From the NCBI RefSeq assembly GCF_009618275.1, contig NZ_WIAD01000002.1, positions 124,001-188,000 on the forward strand: 64,000 nt of DNA, read 5' to 3'. The notes under the pieces were generated by a model. It was not told where the DNA came from. It made no database searches and saw nothing but the letters and a program-made list of their open reading frames with translations. Source of the stretch: Roseimaritima sediminicola (GTDB taxonomy: Bacteria > Planctomycetota > Planctomycetia > Pirellulales > Pirellulaceae). Positions 2,502 to 25,662 of this stretch are shown one piece after another (the first letter of the stretch is position 1; each line of letters starts with the position of its first letter). Made by a program: the position numbers and the translations under genes.

Positions 2502-5027
2502 ATGCCACGAAAGTCGAGAACCATGCGAGTTCCCTGTGACCCCGACCACTGCATTCAGGTGCGCGGGGCCCGCGTCCACAACCTGAAGAACATCGACGTC
2601 GACTTGCCTCGCAACGCCCTGGTGGTGTTTACGGGGATTTCCGGTTCGGGCAAATCTTCGCTGGCATTCGGGACGTTGTTCGCCGAATCCCAACGCCGTT
2701 ATCTGGATTCGGTGTCGCCCTATGCGCGGCGGTTGATCGATCAGGTGGACGAACCCGATATCGATGCCATCGACGGGTTGCCGCCGGCGGTGGCCCTGCA
2801 GCAGCATCGTGCGGTGCCCTCGGCGCGATCCTCGGTGGGCAGCGTGACCACGATTTCCAACGGGTTGCGGATGCTGTATTCCCGGGCGGGAACTTATCCA
2901 CGTGGCCAGCGGATGTTGTATGCGGACGCCTTCTCGCCCAACACGCCCGAGGGAGCCTGTCCGCGCTGTCACGGGATCGGGCGAGTGTTTGAGGTCACCG
3001 AAGATCTGCTGGTTCCCGACGATACCAAGACGATTCGCGAGCGGGCGATCGCCGCGTGGCCGCCCGCCTGGCAGGGGCAAAACCTGCGTGACATCCTGGT
3101 GTCACTCGGTCACGACATCGACAAACCATGGCGCAAACTGCCGCGTAAAACCCGGGACTGGATTCTGTTTACCGACGAAACGCCCGTGGTGCCGGTCTAT
3201 GCGGGTTACGACCTCAAACGAACGCAGGCGGCAATCGAAGCGGAGGAGTCGCCCAGTTACATGGGCACCTTTACCAGTGCCCGGCGTTATGTGCTGCACT
3301 CCTTCGCGACGACGCAGAGCCAACGCACCAAGAAACGCGTCTCACAGTTCATGCAGATCTCGGAATGTCCCGATTGCGAGGGCAAAAAGCTGAAGCGAGA
3401 ATCGCTTTCGGTGAAGTTCGCCGGTCTGGACATCGGCCAGTTGTCGCAGTTGTCGTTGACCGAACTGGCCGACAAACTGCGTGATCCGGCCCATGCGGCG
3501 GCTCAAGAACGCGAGCTGCACCGCGAGAAAGCGATCGTTGCTCAGCGGATCGCCGACGACATTCTGGCCCGCGTCGAAGCGCTGACAATGTTGGGACTGG
3601 GATACCTGTCGCTGGAGCGGAGCACACCGACCCTGTCGCCGGGCGAGCTGCAACGGTTGCGGCTGGCCACGCAGATTCGTTCACAGCTGTTCGGTGTGGT
3701 CTACGTCCTGGACGAACCCTCGGCGGGACTGCATCCGGCCGACACCCAGGCCCTGCTGAGCGCACTGGACGAACTCAAAGACGCCGGCAATTCGTTGTTC
3801 GTCGTGGAGCACGACGTCCGCGTCATCAAGCATGCGGATTGGATCGTGGACATCGGCCCAGATGCGGGGACCCATGGCGGGGAAGTTCTTTATAACGGTC
3901 CGGTCAAAGGCCTTCGCAAAGTCAAGCATTCGCATACCGCGCGGTACCTGTTCGCCAAATCGAGGGCCGCGGAGCGCACGGTTCGCAAGCCCACGGGGTG
4001 GCTGAAACTCAAGGGCGTCGAGCGAAATAATTTGCGCGGACTGGATGCGGAATTCCCGCTGGGTGTGCTGACGACCGTGACCGGCGTGTCGGGGTCGGGA
4101 AAGTCCAGTCTGGTCAGTCAGGCTCTGGTCGAACTGGTCGGCGAGCGATTGGGACACAAGAAAACGGTGGAGCTGCCCAGCGACGAAGGCGATCTGCTGG
4201 AACGCGAGCTGGAGAGCGCGACGGGAGGTCGGATCGTGGCGGGAATCGAACAGGTCCGCCGACTGGTGACCGTCGACCAGAAACCCATCGGTCGCACTCC
4301 GCGTTCGAACCTGGCCACCTACACCGGTCTGTTCGATCACGTCCGGCGTTTGTTCGCGGCCACGCGCAAAGCCCGCTCGCGGCGCTACGACGTCGGCCGG
4401 TTCTCCTTCAATGTTGCCAAGGGACGCTGTGCCAACTGTGAAGGCGCCGGTTTTGTCAGTGTGGAGTTGTTGTTTTTGCCCAGTGTCTACACGCCCTGTC
4501 CGGTGTGTCAGGGCCGACGCTACAACGAGAAAACGCTGGAGGTGACGTATCGCGACAAAAACATCGCGGAAGTGCTGGACCTAACCGTGGAATCCGCTCG
4601 CGAGTTTTTCGAGGAGGATCCGCCGGTCCTGCGTTCGCTCGATGCGCTGCTGCAAGTCGGTCTCGGCTACCTGCGGCTCGGCCAGCCCGCCACCGAGCTG
4701 TCGGGTGGCGAAGCCCAGCGGATCAAACTGGCGACGGAACTGCAGCGCACCCAGCGTGGCGACACGCTGTACGTACTGGATGAACCCACCACCGGCCTGC
4801 ATCCAGCGGACGTGGCGATGTTGATGAACCAGTTGAATGGGCTGGTCGACGCCGACAACACGGTCATCATGGTAGAACACGACATGCAGGTGGCCCGCAC
4901 CAGCGACTGGATCATCGACATCGGTCCCGGAGCCGGCGACCAGGGCGGCGAGGTCGTCGCCGCGGGGCCGCCACAGACCGTCGCCAAATCCGAACGCAGT
5001 CGCACCGCCCCGTTTCTAACGTCGTGA
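2502..5027 (+). CDS. UvrA-like excinuclease ATPase (UvrA2 class)
   Basis: An 841-residue tandem ABC ATPase of the UvrA family. Two Walker A motifs are visible (GISGSGKSS near the N-terminus, GVSGSGKSS in the middle). The signature sequences are [12 protein letters not shown] and [12 protein letters not shown], and the Walker B motifs are [15 protein letters not shown] and [15 protein letters not shown]. Paired CxxC zinc modules occur ([16 protein letters not shown]...CPVCQG). UvrA itself is about 940-970 residues. The shorter length and the Pro in the first signature fit UvrA2/DrrC-like paralogues that lack the UvrB-binding domain, linked to DNA-intercalating drug tolerance or accessory repair. 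A second in-frame ATG at 2523 is an alternative start. It is probably cotranscribed with the upstream gene. Confidence 0.9.
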
Positions 5028-16616: not shown

Positions 16617-16952
16617 TCAGCGGCGGTTGGTAAACACGATCGTCACCAAGACGGTGGAGTCCTCGGTGGCCTCGACAGCGTGCGGTTCGGATTCGGCCAG
16701 GTACAGCATGTCGCCCGTTTTCATCGCCCGCGGCGTCCCGCCGGCCGTGAACTGGATATGCCCTTCCAGGCACTGCACGATCAGCTCGCCCGGCGCTTTG
16801 TGTTCGGGAAGGATTTTCCCGGCCGGCAGCACCAGTCGAATCGCTTCCATAGCGGCCGTCTTGAACAGGGTGTGCGTCTTGGTGTCCGCGATTTTTTCGC
16901 CCAAAGGCTGCAGCGAAATGACTTCGGCGGGATCGGCGTGATGAATGGCCAT
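16617..16952 (-). CDS. Cupin domain protein
   Basis: 111 residues from the ATG at 16952. The cupin barrel is recognisable from VLPAGKILPEHKAPGELIVQCLEG and the second motif TGDMLYLAESEPHAVEA. The His and Glu positions fit a metal-binding small cupin, a cytoplasmic sensor or isomerase-like protein. The substrate is unknown. It lies downstream of the nap operon on the same strand with a gap of about 125 bp. The frame is open upstream to 17024, but that stretch is hydrophobic and not cupin-like. Confidence 0.75.
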   Translation of the reverse strand: MAIHHADPAEVISLQPLGEKIADTKTHTLFKTAAMEAIRLVLPAGKILPEHKAPGELIVQCLEGHIQFTAGGTPRAMKTGDMLYLAESEPHAVEATEDSTVLVTIVFTNRR

Positions 16953-17077
16953 GGGTTGCGTCTCGGTTAAAAAAAGGATGGGGGTTGGCAACTTCGCAAA
17001 GTACACCCAAAGGTACAGAAACAAAGGCCTGTGTCAAGTTGTCCGCACTGCGATGCGGCTTGCCTTTGACGCGACGT

Positions 17078-17407
17078 TCAAGGGCTGGGCAAGCGATTGC
17101 GGATAATCTTTGTGGTCGGGTTGCCCGGCATGATCGTGTCGCACCACATCTCGCCTTCGAACACGTATCGCACCTGAATCGCTTGCGCGTCACCGGCGGC
17201 AAACGCAGCCTGGGCTTCGGCCAGTGCGACGGCCGCATCGGTCGCGGAGGATCGCAGCTGGACGTGCTGGACATCGGCTCCGGCGGCCAGGTCCGCGAAC
17301 AGCTGCAGGACTTGGTCCCGAGCCCATTCGGCCTGCAGGATTTCGGGCAGGGGTTGGTTGTCTTCGAGACGATGAAGGTCTTCGAGTCTCAGCTTTTCCG
17401 AACTCAT
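17078..17407 (-). CDS. Unknown conserved-looking protein coupled to napF
   Basis: 109 residues from the ATG at 17407, which overlaps the napF stop as ATGA. It starts MSSEKLRLEDLHRLEDNQPL. It has an Ala-rich helical middle (ATDAAVALAEAQAAFAAG) and a beta-like end (IQVRYVFEGEMWCDTIMPGN). No signal peptide or metal motif apart from a single Cys. I do not recognise a family. The four-base overlap argues for translation with the nitrate reductase genes, so it may be an assembly factor or cytoplasmic regulator of Nap. Confidence 0.65.
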   Translation of the reverse strand: MSSEKLRLEDLHRLEDNQPLPEILQAEWARDQVLQLFADLAAGADVQHVQLRSSATDAAVALAEAQAAFAAGDAQAIQVRYVFEGEMWCDTIMPGNPTTKIIRNRLPSP

Positions 17408-18252
17408 TGGTGGGGCAATCCGGGACGGGTCAGAGCGGGCATCAGAAGGATGGCGTTTTCCGGTGCGGGACAGACATAGCGGCACATGCCACAGCCGGTG
17501 CAGACGTCTTCGTTGACGGTGGGTTTGCCGTCGGCCAGTGTGATCGCACCGGCGACCGGACAGCGTTCGCTGCACACCGTGCAGAGCGTATTGTGGTGAG
17601 CGAGGCAGAGATGCGGGGTGACCTGGGCGGTGCCCATGATCGGGGCGACCGAGGGGCTCAGGACGCCGGGTTCGCAGGCGGTGATGCAAGGAAAATCCTC
17701 GCACATCGCACAGGCCGCCGTGTCGGCTTCGATGATCGGGGTGCCGGCGACGGCGCCGAGACGCTCCGCGGCGGTAACGATCGCGTCGTGGGGACACGCC
17801 GTGATGCAGTCGCCGCAGCGAGTGCACCCGGCCATGAACTGCGGCTCGGCGATCGCACCGGGTGGGCGAAACACCGGGACGGTGGGCGGGCTAGGTTGGC
17901 GTTTCAGGTCTGTCGCCGGGACCGGATCAATGTTGATGCCGCCGATGTTTCGCGGTTCGGCCCGCGGTGGGCGTTGGTCGGGAGGCAGCGGTTTGGGATA
18001 GCGCGTGACCAGCGGCGGGAACCGCGACGCGGGGACGAATCGCCAGAACCGTCCGTGCAGCAAATCGCGGCGACTGCGGTTCAGCTTTCTCGGAGCGAAC
18101 AGGGCTCGTCCGGCCGCGCGGACCCAGCGGCGCAGCAGGCGGCCGGTTTGCGCGGCGACCGAACGCGGGTTGGTCGGGGTTGGGCGGGACGGGTCGGAGC
18201 GACGTTGGTGGCTGGGGGGCAATGCTTCTCCCGAATTAGTTGGTCGCGACAT
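17404..18252 (-). CDS. napF: NapF-like ferredoxin with four [4Fe-4S] motifs
   Basis: 282 residues from the ATG at 18252, which lies inside the end of napB (17-bp overlap). The long N-terminus is basic and lacks a TAT signal, so the protein is probably cytoplasmic. RSRRDLLHGRFWRF resembles the start of enterobacterial NapF. Four cluster motifs follow: CTRCGDCITACP, CAMCEDFPCITACE, CLAHHNTLCTVCSERCP and CTGCGMCRYVCP. NapF is a cytoplasmic partner that helps mature NapA. The N-terminal extension of roughly 100 residues is unusual for NapF. It is coupled to the unknown 109-residue gene. Confidence 0.8.
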   Translation of the reverse strand: MSRPTNSGEALPPSHQRRSDPSRPTPTNPRSVAAQTGRLLRRWVRAAGRALFAPRKLNRSRRDLLHGRFWRFVPASRFPPLVTRYPKPLPPDQRPPRAEPRNIGGINIDPVPATDLKRQPSPPTVPVFRPPGAIAEPQFMAGCTRCGDCITACPHDAIVTAAERLGAVAGTPIIEADTAACAMCEDFPCITACEPGVLSPSVAPIMGTAQVTPHLCLAHHNTLCTVCSERCPVAGAITLADGKPTVNEDVCTGCGMCRYVCPAPENAILLMPALTRPGLPHQ

Positions 18253-19045
18253 CCAGCGGTGGCAACATGGGAACATTCTCCGGGCTGAACAATTCCGCTT
18301 CGGGCATTTGGTCCAGCGTCGCACTCGGCGCGTGGCACTGGGTGCAGTTAGTTCGCCAAGGATGAGTCGATTCCATGCCAGCCCAGCCGTGCGGACCGCC
18401 GTGACAGGCGTTGCAGTTCTCGCGCATCCAGCGCGAGTGCGGGATGGTCGGCGGGGCTCCGGGATAGGCCCGCTGGCCCTGCTTGGGAGCCGGCAATCCG
18501 GCGAAGCTGGTTTCGACCGAGGCGTCGACATCTTGAAACGGTTTGGGAGCCATCGGTGCATGGCACTGAACGCAGTTTCCCAGGAACTGGTGCGACATCA
18601 CACTGGCTTGTACGCCGTCGATCTTCACGCCGCCGCCGTGGCACGCGTAGCAGGCGGCATCCGACGTGTTTTCGATTTGATGCGGGATGATCGGCGGGGC
18701 GCCGTTATAGGCCCGTCGCGACGCCCTCAATTTGCTAGACGCTTCCTTCTCGGCTTCGCTGGGTTCGAACTTCGTGTACAAATCGTACTCGGACTGCGGC
18801 AAGGGCTGAGCCAGTTCGCGCCAGGTTGCCGTCGGGCCCATGGGGGTTTGTGGGACCTCGGCGTAGGAGACTGCCGGAACCAATTTGGGGTTTTGGGCGA
18901 TCAAGTCCGTGTCGAACCGGGCGACCAACGCCGTTTGGTGCAAGCCGTCCGGCTGGGGAACGCCGTCCATAATACCGACGAAGTAACCGACGACGGCAAC
19001 GGCGATCACGCCGGCGAGAAAAATCGGTACCAGGCGGCGCATCAT
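18236..19045 (-). CDS. napB: NapB-like c-type cytochrome with duplicated di-heme module (four CxxCH)
   Basis: 269 residues from the ATG at 19045, overlapping the napA stop as ATGA. An N-terminal membrane anchor (LVPIFLAGVIAVAVVGYF) is followed by an unassigned ~90-residue region. Two related modules come next: residues 112-165 with GAPPIIPH, CYACH (132-136), SHQF and NCVQCHAP; and residues 193-241 with GAPPTIPH, CNACH (211-215), THPW and NCTQCHAP. Ordinary NapB has one such pair and two hemes. This protein should bind four and stay membrane-anchored if the signal is uncleaved. It passes electrons to NapA in the periplasm. Confidence 0.85.
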   Translation of the reverse strand: MMRRLVPIFLAGVIAVAVVGYFVGIMDGVPQPDGLHQTALVARFDTDLIAQNPKLVPAVSYAEVPQTPMGPTATWRELAQPLPQSEYDLYTKFEPSEAEKEASSKLRASRRAYNGAPPIIPHQIENTSDAACYACHGGGVKIDGVQASVMSHQFLGNCVQCHAPMAPKPFQDVDASVETSFAGLPAPKQGQRAYPGAPPTIPHSRWMRENCNACHGGPHGWAGMESTHPWRTNCTQCHAPSATLDQMPEAELFSPENVPMLPPLDVATN

Positions 19046-21492
19046 GACGACACCTCGGTGCTTTTCACAGAGTTCTTCTTCACCACGCGGGCAGCGCACT
19101 TTTTATAGTCGGGCTGTTTGGAGAACGGGTCATGTTCCTCCAGCGTACAGTCGTTGATCAGTTTGGATTCGTCGAAGAAGGGGACGAAGATCGTCCCGGC
19201 CGGTGGGCGTCCGCGGCCGTCGATCCAGACGGGCAATTCGGTGCTGCCGCGACGGGTTTCGATCACCACGGTCTCGCCTTGGCGGATGTTGGCCGCCTTG
19301 GCATCGGCGGCGTTCATTTCCACATAGGCCGTCGGCATGGCTCGGTTCAGCGGCGCCAGTCGGCGGGTCATCGTGCCGCTGTGCCAGTGCTCGAGCACGC
19401 GGCCGGTACACAGCCACAGCGGGTACTCCTCGTCGGGCTGCTCCGGCGGTGGCAGGTAATCGTGAAACCAGATTTGGGCTCGGCCATCATCAGTGGTGGA
19501 GTGATAGAAATCGAACTCCTGGCCTTCGGCGACGAATGGATCGTCGAAGGCGGCAAACCGAAATCGAGTCTCCCGCCACGAGCCATCGTCCTGCTGGACG
19601 ACCGGCCAACGCAAGCCGCGGGCTTTGACGTATTCGTCGTAGGGGGCCAGATTCTTGTGCTTCAGCGTCGTGAACTGGCGGTACTCTTCGAACAAATGCT
19701 TGTCGACATTGGTGTCGTAGTAGTGAGCGAAGTCCCAGATCGGGATCTCTTCGCCCTGATCGTCCTCGATGGCGAAGAGGAACTTGTCGTCCTTGTCCCG
19801 CATGCCTTCGTGGCCCATCTCGAACAATTTGCGAGCGATTGCGATGGTCATCCAGCAGTCATCGCGAGCCTGGCCCGGCGGGTCGACCATTTTGAACCAC
19901 TGCTGGGTGCGTCGTTCGCTGTTGCCGAACAAGCCATTCTTTTCGACCCACATCGCCGCCGGCAAAATCAGGTCGGCCAGGGCGGTCGTCGCCGTCGGAT
20001 AGACGTCGCTGACGATCAAGAATTTGTCTTCCAGACCCTGTTTGCTGTTGAACAGTTTGTTCAGGTTGGGCAGCGTCTGGCCGGGGTTGGTGACCTGGAC
20101 GAACATCGTGGTGATGTCGCCGCCTTCGTCGGTCGGTTTGGTGAACGCCTCGAACATCTGGACCGTGTGGTAGCCCGGGTCGGGGCTGATGCTGCCGGGA
20201 CGCACGTTCCAGAACGCTTCGCTCTGGGCGCGGTGTTCTGCGTTGGCAACCACCCGGCCACCGGGCAGGGCGTGGGCCAGCGTGCCGACTTCGCGGACTG
20301 TGCCGCAGGCCGACGGTTGTCCGGTCAAACTGGTCGGTGCGTCGCCGGGACGGCCAAAGTGACCGGACATCAAGTGCACGCCGTGTACCAGCGAATTGAT
20401 CGCGGTGCCCATCGTGTGCTGGTTCATGCCCATGCACCACAGACTGGTGATGCGTAGGTCAGAATCGGCAAACAGATCGGCCAGCATGCGAATCTTGTCG
20501 GCCGGGATGCCGGACAGTTCTTCAACCAACTCCGGCGTGTATTTGGCAATTCGCTTGCGATACTCTGCTTCGCTGATCGGTTCGCCTTGCAGGGTCGGCA
20601 GCGAGGCTTCGAGTGCTCGGAAGTTGCAGTGCTGTTCGACGAACGCTTTGTCGTAGTTGTCGTTTTCGATCAACAAGTGCATGATGCCCAGGGCGATCGC
20701 CACATCGCCATGCGGTTTCATTTCCAGGTAATCATTGGCCGCATCGGTGGTGCGCGTGCGCCGGGTACCGATGTCGATGATACGAACCGTCTCGCCGCGC
20801 GAGCGGCGGTCGGTGACGCGGGAGAACAGTACGGGGTGCATCTCGGCCGGGTTGTTGCCCCAGGTGATCAAGACGTCGCATTCGTCCAGATCCTGGTAGC
20901 AGCCGGCCGGTTCGTCGACGCCGTAGGTGGCAATGAAGCCGGTGACTGCCGAAGCCATGCACAGCCGAGCGTTGGGGTCGATGTGATTGTTCCCCAGTCC
21001 GCCCTTCATGAATTTTTGGGCGGCGTAGCCTTCGGGAATCGTCCACTGGCCCGAACCATAGAAGGCGAACGTCTCGGGCGAATCAAAGATCCGTTTGGCG
21101 ATGATCTCGATCGCTTCGTCCCAGGCGATCGGTTTCAAGGAGCCGTCCTCCTGACGCAGCAGCGGCTCGGTCAAGCGGTCTTTGCCGTACAGGATGCCGC
21201 CGACATGATAGCCTTTGACGCACAGCAGCCCCTTATTTACATCGGCCGCCTTGTCGCCAGCTACCGCGACCACACGACCATCCTCGACACCGACCTGCAC
21301 GTGGCAACCCGTACCGCAGAAGCGACACGGGGCTTTGTTCCATGACAGACCGTCGCCGTCGGGCAAGTCATCGACCGCCTGGTCGGCTTGCACCACCGGC
21401 AGCGAGGCTTTGCCGGCGACCAGGGTTCCGGCGGCGGCCATCGCGGCGGCCTTCATCACTTGACGACGATCGTTATTCAACCGGTTCATCAT
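19042..21492 (-). CDS. napA: Periplasmic nitrate reductase catalytic subunit
   Basis: 816 residues from the ATG at 21492. A TAT signal is present (NDRRQVMKAAAMAAAG). The [4Fe-4S] motif is CRFCGTGCHV...LLCVKGY. The Mo-ligand region NARLCMASAVTGF contains the Cys that coordinates molybdenum bis-MGD in NapA. Length and the C-terminal molydopterin-dinucleotide-binding region (EYPLWLCTGRVLEHWHSGTMTRR) are normal. It reduces nitrate to nitrite in the periplasm with electrons from NapB. It overlaps napD by 20 bp upstream and napB by 4 bp downstream, so the operon is tightly coupled. Confidence 0.97.
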   Translation of the reverse strand: MMNRLNNDRRQVMKAAAMAAAGTLVAGKASLPVVQADQAVDDLPDGDGLSWNKAPCRFCGTGCHVQVGVEDGRVVAVAGDKAADVNKGLLCVKGYHVGGILYGKDRLTEPLLRQEDGSLKPIAWDEAIEIIAKRIFDSPETFAFYGSGQWTIPEGYAAQKFMKGGLGNNHIDPNARLCMASAVTGFIATYGVDEPAGCYQDLDECDVLITWGNNPAEMHPVLFSRVTDRRSRGETVRIIDIGTRRTRTTDAANDYLEMKPHGDVAIALGIMHLLIENDNYDKAFVEQHCNFRALEASLPTLQGEPISEAEYRKRIAKYTPELVEELSGIPADKIRMLADLFADSDLRITSLWCMGMNQHTMGTAINSLVHGVHLMSGHFGRPGDAPTSLTGQPSACGTVREVGTLAHALPGGRVVANAEHRAQSEAFWNVRPGSISPDPGYHTVQMFEAFTKPTDEGGDITTMFVQVTNPGQTLPNLNKLFNSKQGLEDKFLIVSDVYPTATTALADLILPAAMWVEKNGLFGNSERRTQQWFKMVDPPGQARDDCWMTIAIARKLFEMGHEGMRDKDDKFLFAIEDDQGEEIPIWDFAHYYDTNVDKHLFEEYRQFTTLKHKNLAPYDEYVKARGLRWPVVQQDDGSWRETRFRFAAFDDPFVAEGQEFDFYHSTTDDGRAQIWFHDYLPPPEQPDEEYPLWLCTGRVLEHWHSGTMTRRLAPLNRAMPTAYVEMNAADAKAANIRQGETVVIETRRGSTELPVWIDGRGRPPAGTIFVPFFDESKLINDCTLEEHDPFSKQPDYKKCAARVVKKNSVKSTEVSS

Positions 21493-21766
21493 TGCGCTCG
21501 CTCGTTCTAGCCCGCGGGTCGTTTTCGTCCGTGTGTTTGTCAAAAGCCACCAGCGCGATCGCGACATCCGCGACGCCTGGCAATTGTTGCACCGCTTCCC
21601 AAACAAGCCTATCGTGTTCTTGTGTCTCCGTGTCGACCACGACTGCCAATTTGTTCTCTTCGGCGTGCCCCAAGTCAACTTCCGGCATCGCCCGCAGGGC
21701 GGAGATCGCAGCGGAGCACTGCGCGACCGGACGATCGAACGTGATGACGAGTCCACTGATTGGCAT
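21473..21766 (-). CDS. napD: NapD chaperone for NapA
   Basis: 97 residues from the ATG at 21766 (MPISGLVITFDRP), matching the NapD start with its beta-alpha-beta fold (ISALRAMPEVDLG, LAVVVDTETQEHD, VADVAIALVAF). NapD binds the TAT signal of NapA in the cytoplasm and prevents early export. It is the first gene of the nap operon. The frame extends upstream to 21871 but without NapD similarity. The acidic C-terminus overlaps the napA start. Confidence 0.88.
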   Translation of the reverse strand: MPISGLVITFDRPVAQCSAAISALRAMPEVDLGHAEENKLAVVVDTETQEHDRLVWEAVQQLPGVADVAIALVAFDKHTDENDPRARTSERNDEPVE

Positions 21767-21922: not shown

Positions 21923-22663
21923 TTGAGAAGGACACTGACAAATTTGGCGCTAGCCGGCGCCGTTTGTTGCACAGTCGCGATGGTCGGGATCGTTGTCTGG
22001 CAGCAAGGCCATCGCGCGGGCGAACGGATCGAGCATCCTGAGGATCCATTGGCGGCGAGGTATGCCGGAGCCGCGTCGCCCGACGCCGAATCATCTTCGG
22101 CCGCGCAGGTGTCCGGCGAACACGAGGCGGACTCGGCGGAATTGTTTTCCGTGTTGATTCGCAAGCCGGACGGACCGCCGCGAGTCAAGCTGGCCGGCCG
22201 CGACCCTCAGGGCCGCAGTCCCGAAGCCGCCTGTTCGACGTGTCACAGCATCCGCGATCCGAATTTCGGCAACACGACACCGGCGACACTGGACGAGTTT
22301 CACCAGGGATTGAGCGTCGCGCACGGCAACCTGGCCTGTTACGCTTGCCATAACCCCCAAGACGCCGACACGCTGCGTTTGGCCGATGGCACCGCGGTCG
22401 CGTACCAAGACGTGATGACGATGTGTTCGCAGTGTCACAGCCAGCAAGCCGAATCGTTTGCCCACGGAGCCCACGGCGGCATGACTGGGCACTGGGATTT
22501 GCGCCGCGGCCCGCAGATGAAAATTAACTGCATCGATTGCCACGACCCGCATTCGCCGGTCTATCCCAAGATGGTCGTCGGCTTTAAACCCAAAGATCGC
22601 TTCAACGTACCTGCGGACGACCATCACGATCACGAAGGAGCGGACTCGCATGGCGAACACTGA
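21923..22663 (+). CDS. Tetraheme c-type cytochrome (NrfB-like role)
   Basis: 246 residues from a TTG at 21923 with AGGGTGA about five bases upstream. One N-terminal hydrophobic helix (LALAGAVCCTVAMVGIVVW) anchors or exports it. Four heme sites are visible: CSTCH, CYACH, CSQCH and CIDCH, with extra His residues (SVAHGN, FAHGAHGG) for axial ligation. The C-terminus is His/Asp-rich. It overlaps the NrfC-like gene by 14 bp. Together with NrfC/NrfD it can carry electrons from quinol to periplasmic acceptors; the nap operon is divergent, so NapB is the likely partner (inference). Confidence 0.85.
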   Translation: MRRTLTNLALAGAVCCTVAMVGIVVWQQGHRAGERIEHPEDPLAARYAGAASPDAESSSAAQVSGEHEADSAELFSVLIRKPDGPPRVKLAGRDPQGRSPEAACSTCHSIRDPNFGNTTPATLDEFHQGLSVAHGNLACYACHNPQDADTLRLADGTAVAYQDVMTMCSQCHSQQAESFAHGAHGGMTGHWDLRRGPQMKINCIDCHDPHSPVYPKMVVGFKPKDRFNVPADDHHDHEGADSHGEH

Positions 22664-23603
22664 ATCGACCCCTCAACCGACTTCCAAGCCGTCGCTTCCG
22701 GTCGTCCAAAACTTTACGCGGCGAGCCGCCGTGAAGGGAGCCTTTGCGACGCTGGGCGCCGGTGCCTTTGTGGCCGCTGTCTCGCCGCTGCGACAGGCTG
22801 CGAAGAATACGACGGCGGCCGAGTTCATGCAGCAGCACTACACCGAGCTATCGCCCGAGCAAAAGGCCGATGTGATCGCTCGATTGGAAGCCGAGGCCAA
22901 AGAGCAATACGGGGCGGACGTTCAAATCGCCGATGACCGTCCGATCCCCGGCACCAAGTTCGTCTACGCGATCAATCTCAGTGTGTGTAACGGCAACGGC
23001 AAATGCGTCGAAGCCTGCCACAAGGAAAACAACCACGACCGTGACACGAACCAGTCCTACATCCGCGTCGTGGAAATGCCCAAGGGCACCATGGACATGG
23101 AGAAAGGCTCGACGACCTATACCGGCACGGTGCCCAAGGACGACAAGTTTTATCTGCCGGTACAGTGTCAGCAGTGCGACGAGCCGCCGTGCGTGGACGT
23201 GTGCCCGGTAAAAGCCACGTGGAAAGAGGAAGATGGCATCGTGGTCGTCGATTACAACTGGTGCATCGGTTGTCGCTACTGCGAAGCGGCCTGCCCCTAC
23301 CACGCGCGGCGTTTCAATTGGAAGAAACCCGTCGTGCCGGCCGAGGAAATCAATCCCGACCAAAGCTACTTGAGCAACCGCGTGCGTCCCGTCGGCGTGG
23401 TCGAAAAGTGCACCTATTGCCTGCACCGAACCCGCCGCGGTCGCTTGCCGGCTTGTCTCGAAGCCTGTCCGACCGGGGCCCGCGTGTTCGGCAACATTCT
23501 CGACAAAGATTCCAATATTCGCTGGATCCTTGAAAACAAACGCGTCTACATCCTCAAAGAGGAACTCGGCACCAAGCCGGCGTTCTTCTATTACTTCGAT
23601 TAA
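22650..23603 (+). CDS. NrfC/PsrB-like 4Fe-4S ferredoxin subunit, TAT-exported
   Basis: 317 residues. A twin-arginine signal is present (NFTRRAAVKGAFATLGAG). Four [4Fe-4S] cysteine sets are seen: CNGNGKCVEACHKEN, CQQCDEPPCVDVCP, CIGCRYCEAACPYHARRFNW and CTYCLHRTRRGRLPACLEACPTGA. This is the dicluster/tetracluster subunit of molybdopterin oxidoreductase and Nrf-type complexes. Here no catalytic subunit is adjacent on this strand. It sits between the cytochrome and NrfD genes and should relay electrons between NrfD-bound quinol and hemes. Confidence 0.92.
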   Translation: MANTESTPQPTSKPSLPVVQNFTRRAAVKGAFATLGAGAFVAAVSPLRQAAKNTTAAEFMQQHYTELSPEQKADVIARLEAEAKEQYGADVQIADDRPIPGTKFVYAINLSVCNGNGKCVEACHKENNHDRDTNQSYIRVVEMPKGTMDMEKGSTTYTGTVPKDDKFYLPVQCQQCDEPPCVDVCPVKATWKEEDGIVVVDYNWCIGCRYCEAACPYHARRFNWKKPVVPAEEINPDQSYLSNRVRPVGVVEKCTYCLHRTRRGRLPACLEACPTGARVFGNILDKDSNIRWILENKRVYILKEELGTKPAFFYYFD

Positions 23604-23623: not shown

Positions 23624-24874
23624 ATGAGCAGTATCACGGCGCCACCGGGCGAGAATGAATCGCACGTCACCAGCTACCCTCGGTTCCTGGGGCGTTCGCT
23701 GTGGCTGGCGACCGAAGGCTCGCTGGCGTTTTATGCCTGGATGACGGTTCTGACCGCACTGTTCCTGGTCGGCGCGAACGCCTGGGCCAATCAGGTCGCC
23801 GGCGGCATGATCGGGACCAATATGACCGACCATGTCAGTTGGGGACTGTACATCGCCAACTTTACGTTCATGGTCGGCCTGGCCGCGGGCGGGGTGATGA
23901 TGGTCATCCCGGCGTACCTGTACCGCGACCGCAAGATGCACGACGTCGTGATCATCGGCGAACTGCTGGCCATCGCGGCCATCGTGATGTGTCTGATGTT
24001 CGTGATCGCCGATCTCGGCCGTCCCGATCGGTTCTGGCACATGATGCCGGTGATCGGCAAGTTCAACTTTCCGATCTCGATGCTGACCTGGGACGTGATT
24101 GTCCTGAACGGTTACCTGCTGTTGAACCTGCACATCTGCGGCTATCTGTTGTACATGCGCTACCTGGGCCGCAAGCCCAACCCGGTGTGGTACGTGCCGT
24201 TTGTGATGTTGTCGATCGTATGGGCGATTTCGATCCACACGGTCACCGCGTTTCTATACTGCGGTCTGGGCGGGCGACCGTTTTGGAATACCGCGCTGCT
24301 GGCTCCGCGGTTTCTGGCCTCGGCCTTCGTATCGGGCCCGGCCTTCATCATCGTGTCCATGGTGTTGATCAAACGCGTCACCGGGGTTGGTGGCCTGGAC
24401 CAGCCCATCGCCACGCTGACCAAAATCGTTCGGGTAACCATCCTGATCAATCTGCTGATGGTGACCTCGGAGCTGTTTACTGAGTTCTATACCGGCGGCA
24501 GTCACACCAGCGCGGCGAAGTATCTGTTTTTTGGCCTGCACGGCAAGACCGCGCTGGTTCCTTGGATCTGGACGGCGATCGGATTGAACATCACGGCGGC
24601 GCTGCTTTTGCTGTGGCCGGGGCTGCTGGAGCTTCGCCGCAGACCACTGCTGGTCGCGGCGTGTTGCATGGCATTTGTAGGGGCCTGGATCGAGAAAGGC
24701 ATGGGCCTGATCGTCCCCGGTTTTATTCCCAGCACCTTGCACGAAATCGTCGAATACGTGCCCAGTCAACTGGAGTGGAAAGTCACCGTCGGCATCTGGG
24801 CGTTCGGTTTGATGGTCTTTACGATCGCGATCAAAACGGCCCTGCCGACGCTGAGGCATCCGGCGGAACATTAG
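23624..24874 (+). CDS. nrfD: NrfD/PsrC-like integral membrane quinol oxidoreductase subunit
   Basis: 416 residues with about ten hydrophobic helices, e.g. LYIANFTFMVGLAAGGVMMV, IGELLAIAAIVMCLMFVIAD and VSMVLIKRVTG. GRPDRFWHMMP and the length fit the PsrC/NrfD/ActC family, which binds menaquinol at the membrane. It is 20 bp after the NrfC-like gene. The absence of NapC or NapGH in the window makes this module the obvious quinol oxidase for Nap (inference). It ends convergent with the response regulator across a repeat-containing gap. Confidence 0.92.
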   Translation: MSSITAPPGENESHVTSYPRFLGRSLWLATEGSLAFYAWMTVLTALFLVGANAWANQVAGGMIGTNMTDHVSWGLYIANFTFMVGLAAGGVMMVIPAYLYRDRKMHDVVIIGELLAIAAIVMCLMFVIADLGRPDRFWHMMPVIGKFNFPISMLTWDVIVLNGYLLLNLHICGYLLYMRYLGRKPNPVWYVPFVMLSIVWAISIHTVTAFLYCGLGGRPFWNTALLAPRFLASAFVSGPAFIIVSMVLIKRVTGVGGLDQPIATLTKIVRVTILINLLMVTSELFTEFYTGGSHTSAAKYLFFGLHGKTALVPWIWTAIGLNITAALLLLWPGLLELRRRPLLVAACCMAFVGAWIEKGMGLIVPGFIPSTLHEIVEYVPSQLEWKVTVGIWAFGLMVFTIAIKTALPTLRHPAEH

Positions 24875-25044: not shown

Positions 25045-25662
25045 CTAGGTGGGCTGGCCGGGGTCTTCGGGGGCGCGCTTGCGGAGCTTTCGCTGCAGCG
25101 AGCGGCGATGGATGCCCAGTCGCCGCGCCGCTTCGCTGATGTTGTTGCCGCAGTCGGCCAGCACGCGATGGATGTGCTCCCATTCGCTGCGGGCCAGCGA
25201 CGGGGCGGGGAATTCCGCATCCGGTTTCGGCAGCGGGCCGGGTTGATCACCCTGCAGGAATTTGGCCAGGATGTCGTCGGCGTCGGCCGGTTTGCTCAGA
25301 AAGTTCGTGGCCCCCAGCCGCACCGCGTCGATGCCGGTGGCGATGCTGCCGAAGCCGGACAGAATCAGCACGCGGGTCTCGGGCCGGAGCTGTTTGATCT
25401 TCTGCAGCAGGTCCAGGCCGCTGCGGCCGGGCATCCGCAGATCCAGCACGGCCAGGTCGGTGGGCCGCAGGGAAAACACGCTGACCGCCTGGTCGTAGTC
25501 CTCGGCTGTCTCGACGCGAAAGCCACGCTGTTGGAAGGCGATGGCCAAGCGGTCCCGAAGGATAAAAGCGTCGTCGACCACCAGAATGCTCTCGGCTCCG
25601 GCGTCCGCAGCCGTATAAACCGGAGGGCGTTCGGTTTCGTTGCCTTCGACTGGAACCATCAC
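25045..25662 (-). CDS. RegA/PrrA/ActR-type redox response regulator
   Basis: 205 residues. The receiver domain has acidic residues DD (30-31), phospho-acceptor Asp74 (AVLDLRMPG), Ser102 and Lys124 (FLSKP). A Pro-rich linker leads to a Fis-type helix-turn-helix, NNISEAARRLGIHRRSLQRK, which closely resembles the RegA/PrrA C-terminus. These regulators pair with RegB/PrrB kinases and control respiration in response to quinone redox state. No kinase gene is adjacent in this window. Position beside the nap/nrf genes suggests, but does not prove, that it controls them. Confidence 0.88.
   Translation of the reverse strand: MMVPVEGNETERPPVYTAADAGAESILVVDDAFILRDRLAIAFQQRGFRVETAEDYDQAVSVFSLRPTDLAVLDLRMPGRSGLDLLQKIKQLRPETRVLILSGFGSIATGIDAVRLGATNFLSKPADADDILAKFLQGDQPGPLPKPDAEFPAPSLARSEWEHIHRVLADCGNNISEAARRLGIHRRSLQRKLRKRAPEDPGQPT

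Follow-up and report, generated by a model that had tools for sequence, protein, structure and literature searches.

Periplasmic nitrate reductase (Nap) is portrayed in passages of two papers as an enzyme whose NapB subunit carries two hemes and whose electrons arrive through NapC or NapGH (PMC13223375, PMC12780646). The passages of a 2026 review that treat operons distinguish four types, napEDABC, napDAGHB, napCMADGH and napAGHBFLD, none of them with NrfCD (PMC13223375), and NrfBCD, composed of a multiheme cytochrome, an NrfC-type 4Fe-4S protein and the quinol oxidase NrfD, is described in an excerpt of another paper as the input to cytochrome c nitrite reductase (PMC12285233). In this study, we describe a nap locus in a 64,000-nucleotide stretch of the planctomycete Roseimaritima sediminicola (contig NZ_WIAD01000002.1, positions 124,001 to 188,000; hereafter the window), taken from a draft genome of 6.2 Mb in 185 contigs with 98.86% completeness. 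While Nap itself is known, the new feature is a double-length and putatively membrane-anchored NapB, encoded by a gene that we call napB4, beside a membrane module that lies outside the usual nap gene sets. We consider it probable that this locus encodes a periplasmic nitrate reductase with a membrane-tethered tetraheme NapB, fed by a path running through NrfD, NrfC and a cytochrome.

The napB4 gene (18236..19045, minus strand) encodes 269 amino acids, and its first ATG overlaps the TGA stop of napA as ATGA. Like the two-heme NapB of Pfam family PF03892 and of Escherichia coli K-12, it adjoins napA, contains the module PPxIPH...CxxCH...H...CxxCH and passes the Pfam cut-off, but its modules and heme motifs are doubled, to two and four, respectively, its helix looks uncleaved, and neither NapC nor NapH is encoded beside it. 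The frame reads CYACH at residue 132, CVQCH at 158, CNACH at 211 and CTQCH at 234, with PPIIPH and PPTIPH preceding the first and the second pair, so that the order PPxIPH, CxxCH, H, CxxCH is run through twice. Heme module 1 (18542..18724, minus strand; about residues 108-168) holds H122, C132-H136, H152 and C158-H162, and heme module 2 (18314..18481, minus strand; about residues 189-244) holds H203, C211-H215, H228 and C234-H238. When the protein was aligned with 22 close relatives, all four CxxCH motifs were kept in 23 of 23 rows, thus we name it a tetraheme variant rather than an ordinary NapB. Histidines 122, 136, 152, 162, 203, 215, 228 and 238 were likewise invariant in these 23 rows, as they were, together with the four motifs, in a more diverse alignment of 14 rows, while H36 and H219 varied among the 23. 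Eight invariant histidines would be just sufficient for four bis-histidine hemes, and heme attachment with bis-histidine ligation is predicted for this protein. A sequencing error or frameshift as the source of the second module is ruled out, since all four motifs recur in 22 of 22 relatives from other genome records, in 38 of 38 further planctomycete loci and in a relative on a Flammeovirga plasmid.

The initial annotation had read this protein as a NapB with a duplicated di-heme module, and a comparison of the two modules by profile supports that description. It covered 75 two-module proteins, the window protein included; the remaining three of the 78 sequences lack two modules by pattern, namely L136 and L137, which are di-heme, and L135, which has four motifs. 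Against shuffled sequences (n=750) in which every C and H was held fixed, the module-1 profile scored the 75 module-2 sequences at a median of 48.2 bits and a minimum of 31.8, above the shuffle maximum of 22.8. The reverse search was weaker, with a median of 47.8 bits, a minimum of 15.7 and a shuffle maximum of 27.9. The two modules are therefore alike beyond the heme motifs, cysteines and histidines aside, and the resemblance is clearer with the module-1 profile.

Whether such a protein descends from NapB is a separate question. The window protein passes the Pfam NapB model with 38 bits (cut-off 25.1), and the Flammeovirga protein does so with 39.7 bits; in addition, the NapB module of E. coli exceeds all shuffles with the module-1 profile (33.0 bits), but with the module-2 profile, at 22.1 bits, it stays within the shuffle range. 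On the other hand, a single stretch of the window protein reaches the Pfam model, covering profile positions 23-74 of 127, cytochrome c7 models match as well, and the lipoprotein-type NapB of locus L053 matches cytochrome c7 and similar models and misses Pfam NapB, which makes descent from NapB proper less certain. An independent tetraheme cytochrome of the c7 or NapM kind might have taken the NapB role beside NapA, and the title of one paper does describe a tetraheme Nap cytochrome, NapM, in Desulfovibrio; given the scores above we regard this origin as improbable. The Desulfovibrio system, which reportedly lacks NapB and which we take to be of the napCMADGH type, shares with the present locus a tetraheme cytochrome serving Nap and differs in the missing NapB, the comparison extending as far as that title. 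A search of PDB sequences with the tetraheme NapB gave no significant match, the best (E 0.28) being a NapB chain.

A tree of the modules was computed from 34 of the 75 two-module proteins, split into their modules, and three canonical NapB over 61 columns; it is unrooted and its bootstrap is not settled. Each module is set off by a branch (supports 92/91 and 93/38), with the modules of the Flammeovirga protein falling into place as well, thus one old event is the simplest reading. It is the module-1 side that the 92/91 branch sets apart, and the three canonical NapB fall on the module-2 side of it, an arrangement that would also be expected if the tetraheme form were the older one here and two-heme NapB had arisen by loss of module 1 instead of the tetraheme form arising by duplication of NapB. 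Rooting on the canonical NapB branch, however, yields a plain duplication, and with 61 columns, three canonical rows, no root, and a value of 38 in the Shimodaira-Hasegawa-like approximate likelihood ratio test (SH-aLRT) for the module-2 branch, we hold loss of module 1 to be unlikely.

The N-terminal membrane helix of NapB (18968..19042, minus strand; residues 2-26) carries the conserved glycines G20 and G24, a GxxxG motif near its end, and no AxA-type cleavage site is visible by eye after it, in keeping with the uncleaved-looking anchor of the initial annotation. Signal peptides usually drift more than this helix, whose G20 and G24 are invariant both in the 23-row alignment and in a 12-row alignment of anchored NapB. 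It is also the sole part of the AlphaFold2 model with useful confidence (block values of the predicted local distance difference test, pLDDT, of 75, 86 and 61). On these grounds NapB is predicted to be tethered to the membrane by its N-terminal helix.

On the minus strand the gene order is napD, napA, napB4 and then a ferredoxin gene. The catalytic Mo/4Fe-4S subunit NapA (19042..21492, minus strand; 816 amino acids) has a twin-arginine type signal by eye and is 42% identical to NapA of E. coli K-12 over 808 aligned columns; its top NCBIfam models are NapA models, at 853 and 815 bits, under their cut-offs of 904 and 931. The chaperone gene napD (21473..21766, minus strand; 97 amino acids) reaches 28.5 bits with the Pfam NapD model (cut-off 28). 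The NapG/NapF-type ferredoxin (17404..18231, minus strand), of uncertain start and with no signal sequence evident by eye, scores 100.5 bits with the NapG model, 94.7 with MauM/NapG and 63.7 with NapF, each under the cut-off. Divergent from napD runs an operon of three genes on the plus strand: a cytochrome c with four CxxCH and an N-terminal hydrophobic helix (21923..22663), an NrfC/DsrO-like 4Fe-4S protein with a twin-arginine type signal by eye (22650..23603), and an NrfD/DsrP-like membrane subunit (23624..24874). In the NrfC-like protein 4Fe-4S domains exceed their cut-offs (Fer4_11 at 80.5 bits), while the NrfC equivalog falls short (116.3 of 377.6 bits). By NCBIfam score the membrane pair is closer to DsrO and DsrP, with 185.7 bits for DsrO (cut-off 200) and 433.9 for DsrP (cut-off 350), and the membrane subunit also matches Pfam NrfD at 139 bits (cut-off 25.8). 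Conservation of the divergent operon is high: among the 22 close-relative loci, NrfC is 85-94% identical in the 19 that hold most of the gene; it is cut in one and lies past the contig end in two.

With the Nap operon types set out in the passages of the review, the window locus shares napD, napA, napB and a NapG/F-type ferredoxin, and it differs in having a cytochrome-NrfC-NrfD module instead of napC or napH (PMC13223375). With NrfBCD, as described in the excerpt, it shares the combination of a multiheme cytochrome, an NrfC-type 4Fe-4S protein and an NrfD quinol oxidase, but by gene context it would feed NapA rather than NrfA, and its cytochrome, with four CxxCH, misses the cut-off of the NrfB model TIGR03146 (21.4 of 166.6 bits) (PMC12285233). 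The closest printed precedent that we found is the NrfD cluster downstream of Nap reported, in the text available, for two Planctomycetota metagenome-assembled genomes from the Oslofjord; those clusters most often show five heme motifs and come with actD, and the word NapB does not occur in that text (PMC10732223). A figure legend there lists a cupin gene (PF07883) nearby (PMC10732223), and the window has a Cupin_2 protein (16617-17024, minus strand) downstream of the napG-like gene. Passages of a planctomycete study report upregulation of napA and napB with nitrate and give no heme count (PMC10945688). Our searches of the open-access literature gave no description of a tetraheme NapB, although one may be in print elsewhere.

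How widely the NrfCD module accompanies such a NapB was surveyed in 75 loci with at least four CxxCH (73 with four and 2 with five; L135 included, the window excluded), two of which, L040 and L043, lie on contigs of equal length (30,422) and probably represent a single contig; nrfD was detected at a threshold of 200 bits. NrfC/NrfD was the sole module in 52 loci and an octaheme cytochrome in 11; one locus had both, two had neither, and 9 offered too little sequence, so that NrfC or NrfD adjoins 53 of the 75 genes. Where the orientation of nrfD and napA could be compared, it was divergent in 46 of 49 loci and on the same strand in 3, and in all 55 loci where its match reached at least 60 bits the partner cytochrome had four CxxCH. 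A search with E. coli NapC across 77 loci (the two di-heme ones included) gave no match of at least 50 bits, the best, at 47 bits, being the NrfH of L052, and a NapH-like match occurred in one of the 77, L133. Among the modules searched (NapC, NapH, NrfH and NrfCD), NrfCD is the only one that recurs beside napDAB4, thus it is the likelier quinol dehydrogenase. As a separate observation, the NapG-like and NapH-like genes of L133 (near 1224 and 2959) lie about 6 kb from its tetraheme NapB gene.

The type of NapB anchor follows the module. In the NrfCD-only loci NapB is membrane-anchored in 51 of 52 and has a lipobox in none, the exception, L120, being a match with an in-frame TGA, and across these 51 loci the helix is separated from module 1 by 63-109 residues. 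In the octaheme-only loci, 9 of 11 NapB have a lipobox and 2 a transmembrane anchor. The association gives a Fisher p of 2.7e-9 (51 membrane and 0 lipobox anchors with NrfCD, 2 and 9 with the octaheme cytochrome), a value that overstates independence, since the rows are related and many are close to the window. Among the 51 membrane-anchored NapB from NrfCD-only loci, 49 show the GxxxG motif; all three from octaheme loci, one of which also has NrfCD, lack it; these counts cover membrane-type anchors, a looser scan having also flagged the lipoprotein-type L054, L121 and L130. NapB of L024, L098, L101 and L114, with a cysteine inside the helix, were classed as membrane-anchored and not lipobox, and L121 was classed as transmembrane although its segment ends in a cysteine and may be a missed lipobox.

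At the level of the whole genome, no match to the NapC model TIGR02161 exceeds the cut-off. The best, at 26.8 of 310.6 bits, is a protein with four CxxCH whose gene lies next to nrfA on another contig, thus it is probably NrfH. The NapH models reach at best 47.2 and 39.1 of 213 bits, in one 813-residue frame on another contig. The gene nrfA and the probable nrfH stand together on host contig C163 near 2542-4500 (L002, L139), away from the nap locus, so that reduction of nitrate to ammonium by this organism is plausible.

Gene context and the scheme of NrfBCD are our grounds for inferring the order of electron flow, the docking and the physiological use. Quinol would be oxidised at the NrfD/DsrP-like membrane protein. 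The electrons would then travel via the iron-sulphur clusters of the NrfC/DsrO-like protein and the four-heme cytochrome to NapB, move along its four hemes and enter NapA, reaching its 4Fe-4S cluster and its molybdenum site for the reduction of nitrate to nitrite; NrfHA could then take nitrite on to ammonium in the host genome. Through its helix with the GxxxG motif, which may pack against NrfD, NapB would keep NapA at the membrane. That NrfD, NrfC, the cytochrome and NapBA form a stable assembly, with the GxxxG helix packed on an NrfD-like subunit that may translocate protons, is a more tentative extension and rather doubtful at present. NrfD-like subunits are credited with ion translocation in the title of one paper (PMC8076601), and if the assembly were true, periplasmic nitrate reduction would conserve energy directly and not via the non-electrogenic NapC or NapGH; the NrfD link makes this question of energy coupling testable.

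The initial annotation had gone further and suggested that a longer heme wire might remove the need for NapC. Four predicted hemes and the lack of a NapC over the cut-off fit that suggestion, but the wire by itself does not appear to suffice, since the Pfam match of the protein is to NapB rather than to the NapC family, and NrfC or NrfD so often adjoins its gene. In its strongest form the idea would assign the role of quinol dehydrogenase to the tetraheme NapB, with the helix and the extra di-heme module taking the place of NapC and the NrfCD operon serving another pathway. NapC of Sporomusa is indeed described, in the part of the source available, with four heme motifs and one membrane helix, the same count as in NapB4, and the window protein matches the NrfH model TIGR03153 weakly (20.6 of 134.2 bits). 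However, neither PF03264 (up to E 1) nor TIGR02161 (up to E 0.01) is among its Pfam and NCBIfam matches, respectively, and the lipobox anchors of the octaheme-only loci indicate that a membrane helix is not needed, thus we find this role highly improbable. It seems equally improbable that NrfCD is a mere neighbour and that another membrane quinol oxidase of the genome, for example NrfH, feeds Nap: a probable NrfH is available on another contig, and the search covered NapC, NapH, NrfH and NrfCD among possible dehydrogenases, but within that set NrfCD alone recurs. We therefore keep the path from NrfD through NrfC and the cytochrome to NapB and NapA as the preferred reading.

Several observations, in addition to the Pfam result for L053, weigh against it. 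The broad NapC/NirT family PF03264 has three matches over the cut-off in the genome; one is the probable NrfH, which could in principle feed Nap, and the others fall in reading frames of 854 residues (5 CxxCH) and 724 residues (7 CxxCH). Some module-1 sequences score no higher than shuffles under the module-2 profile, and the AlphaFold2 model from the 23 close sequences has a mean pLDDT of 40, with the N-terminal helix alone reliable. L056 and L134 have NrfCD without GxxxG, L132 carries both NrfCD and the octaheme gene, and L133, counted as octaheme, probably has both, its nrfD being cut at the contig end and scoring 121 bits, under the threshold. In 2 of the 75 loci napA was not detected, namely L105 (19 kb examined, NrfCD present) and L127 (a 4.4 kb contig). 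The locus is also patchy: none of the 3 remaining genomes of the genus has it, and it occurs in 14 of 60 nearest genomes (own genome counted, E <= 0.001). Separately, the stretch without detectable napA at L105 (G394:C12:337000-356000) encodes the tetraheme NapB, the cytochrome, NrfC and NrfD, and the same genome has the complete locus L106.

The tetraheme NapB is not peculiar to the host genome. Close relatives are encoded in records of Rhodopirellula, Rubripirellula, Stieleria/Roseiconus and further planctomycetes, and in a phylum sample of 392 genomes, the own genome among them, the two-module profile finds a match in 60 at E <= 0.001 and in 49 at E <= 1.2e-31; all 38 loci read from 37 of these 49 genomes encode four CxxCH. 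The Pfam NapB model finds matches in 47 of 384 planctomycete genomes, 34 of them over the cut-off, and the two matches of about 80 bits are both proteins with two CxxCH; the weaker matches were only partly read, and several of those under the cut-off lie in frames of about 950 residues. Within the planctomycete sample the four-heme NapB is thus the common kind. Outside the phylum, a search of a plasmid collection gave one record, a plasmid of Flammeovirga kamogawensis (Bacteroidota), on which napD and napA stand collinear in one row with genes for a NapB and a cytochrome of four hemes each and for NrfC-like and NrfD-like proteins. Many planctomycetes therefore carry a nitrate-respiration enzyme with a putatively four-heme NapB, and annotation that expects a di-heme NapB or requires NapC would misread nitrate respiration in these organisms. 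To the specialist, a phylum-wide four-heme NapB closely paired with NrfCD is notable rather than revolutionary.

The octaheme loci, with their mostly lipobox-bearing tetraheme NapB, appear to be a second Nap layout in planctomycetes. An octaheme-type cytochrome gene lies upstream of napA in L053 (4191-5900) and L054 (3841-5721), the two in which eight CxxCH were counted, and also in L121-L126, L129 and L131. The L053 protein matches Pfam multi-haem cytochrome and cytochrome c554 models and is presumably akin to hydroxylamine oxidoreductase.

Beside nrfD in the window an ActR/PrrA/RegA-like response regulator is encoded (25045-25662, minus strand; 170 of 250 bits), which has no match in the sequence examined of the 22 close-relative loci. 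Five two-module NapB matches, in G235, G207, G377, G312 and G099, contain one in-frame stop each, four TGA and one TAA, which may reflect an error, an over-extended frame or gene decay. Finally, two NapB relatives, in L045 (8755-9546) and L046 (5653-6489), have a fifth CxxCH ahead of module 1 and are possibly pentaheme.
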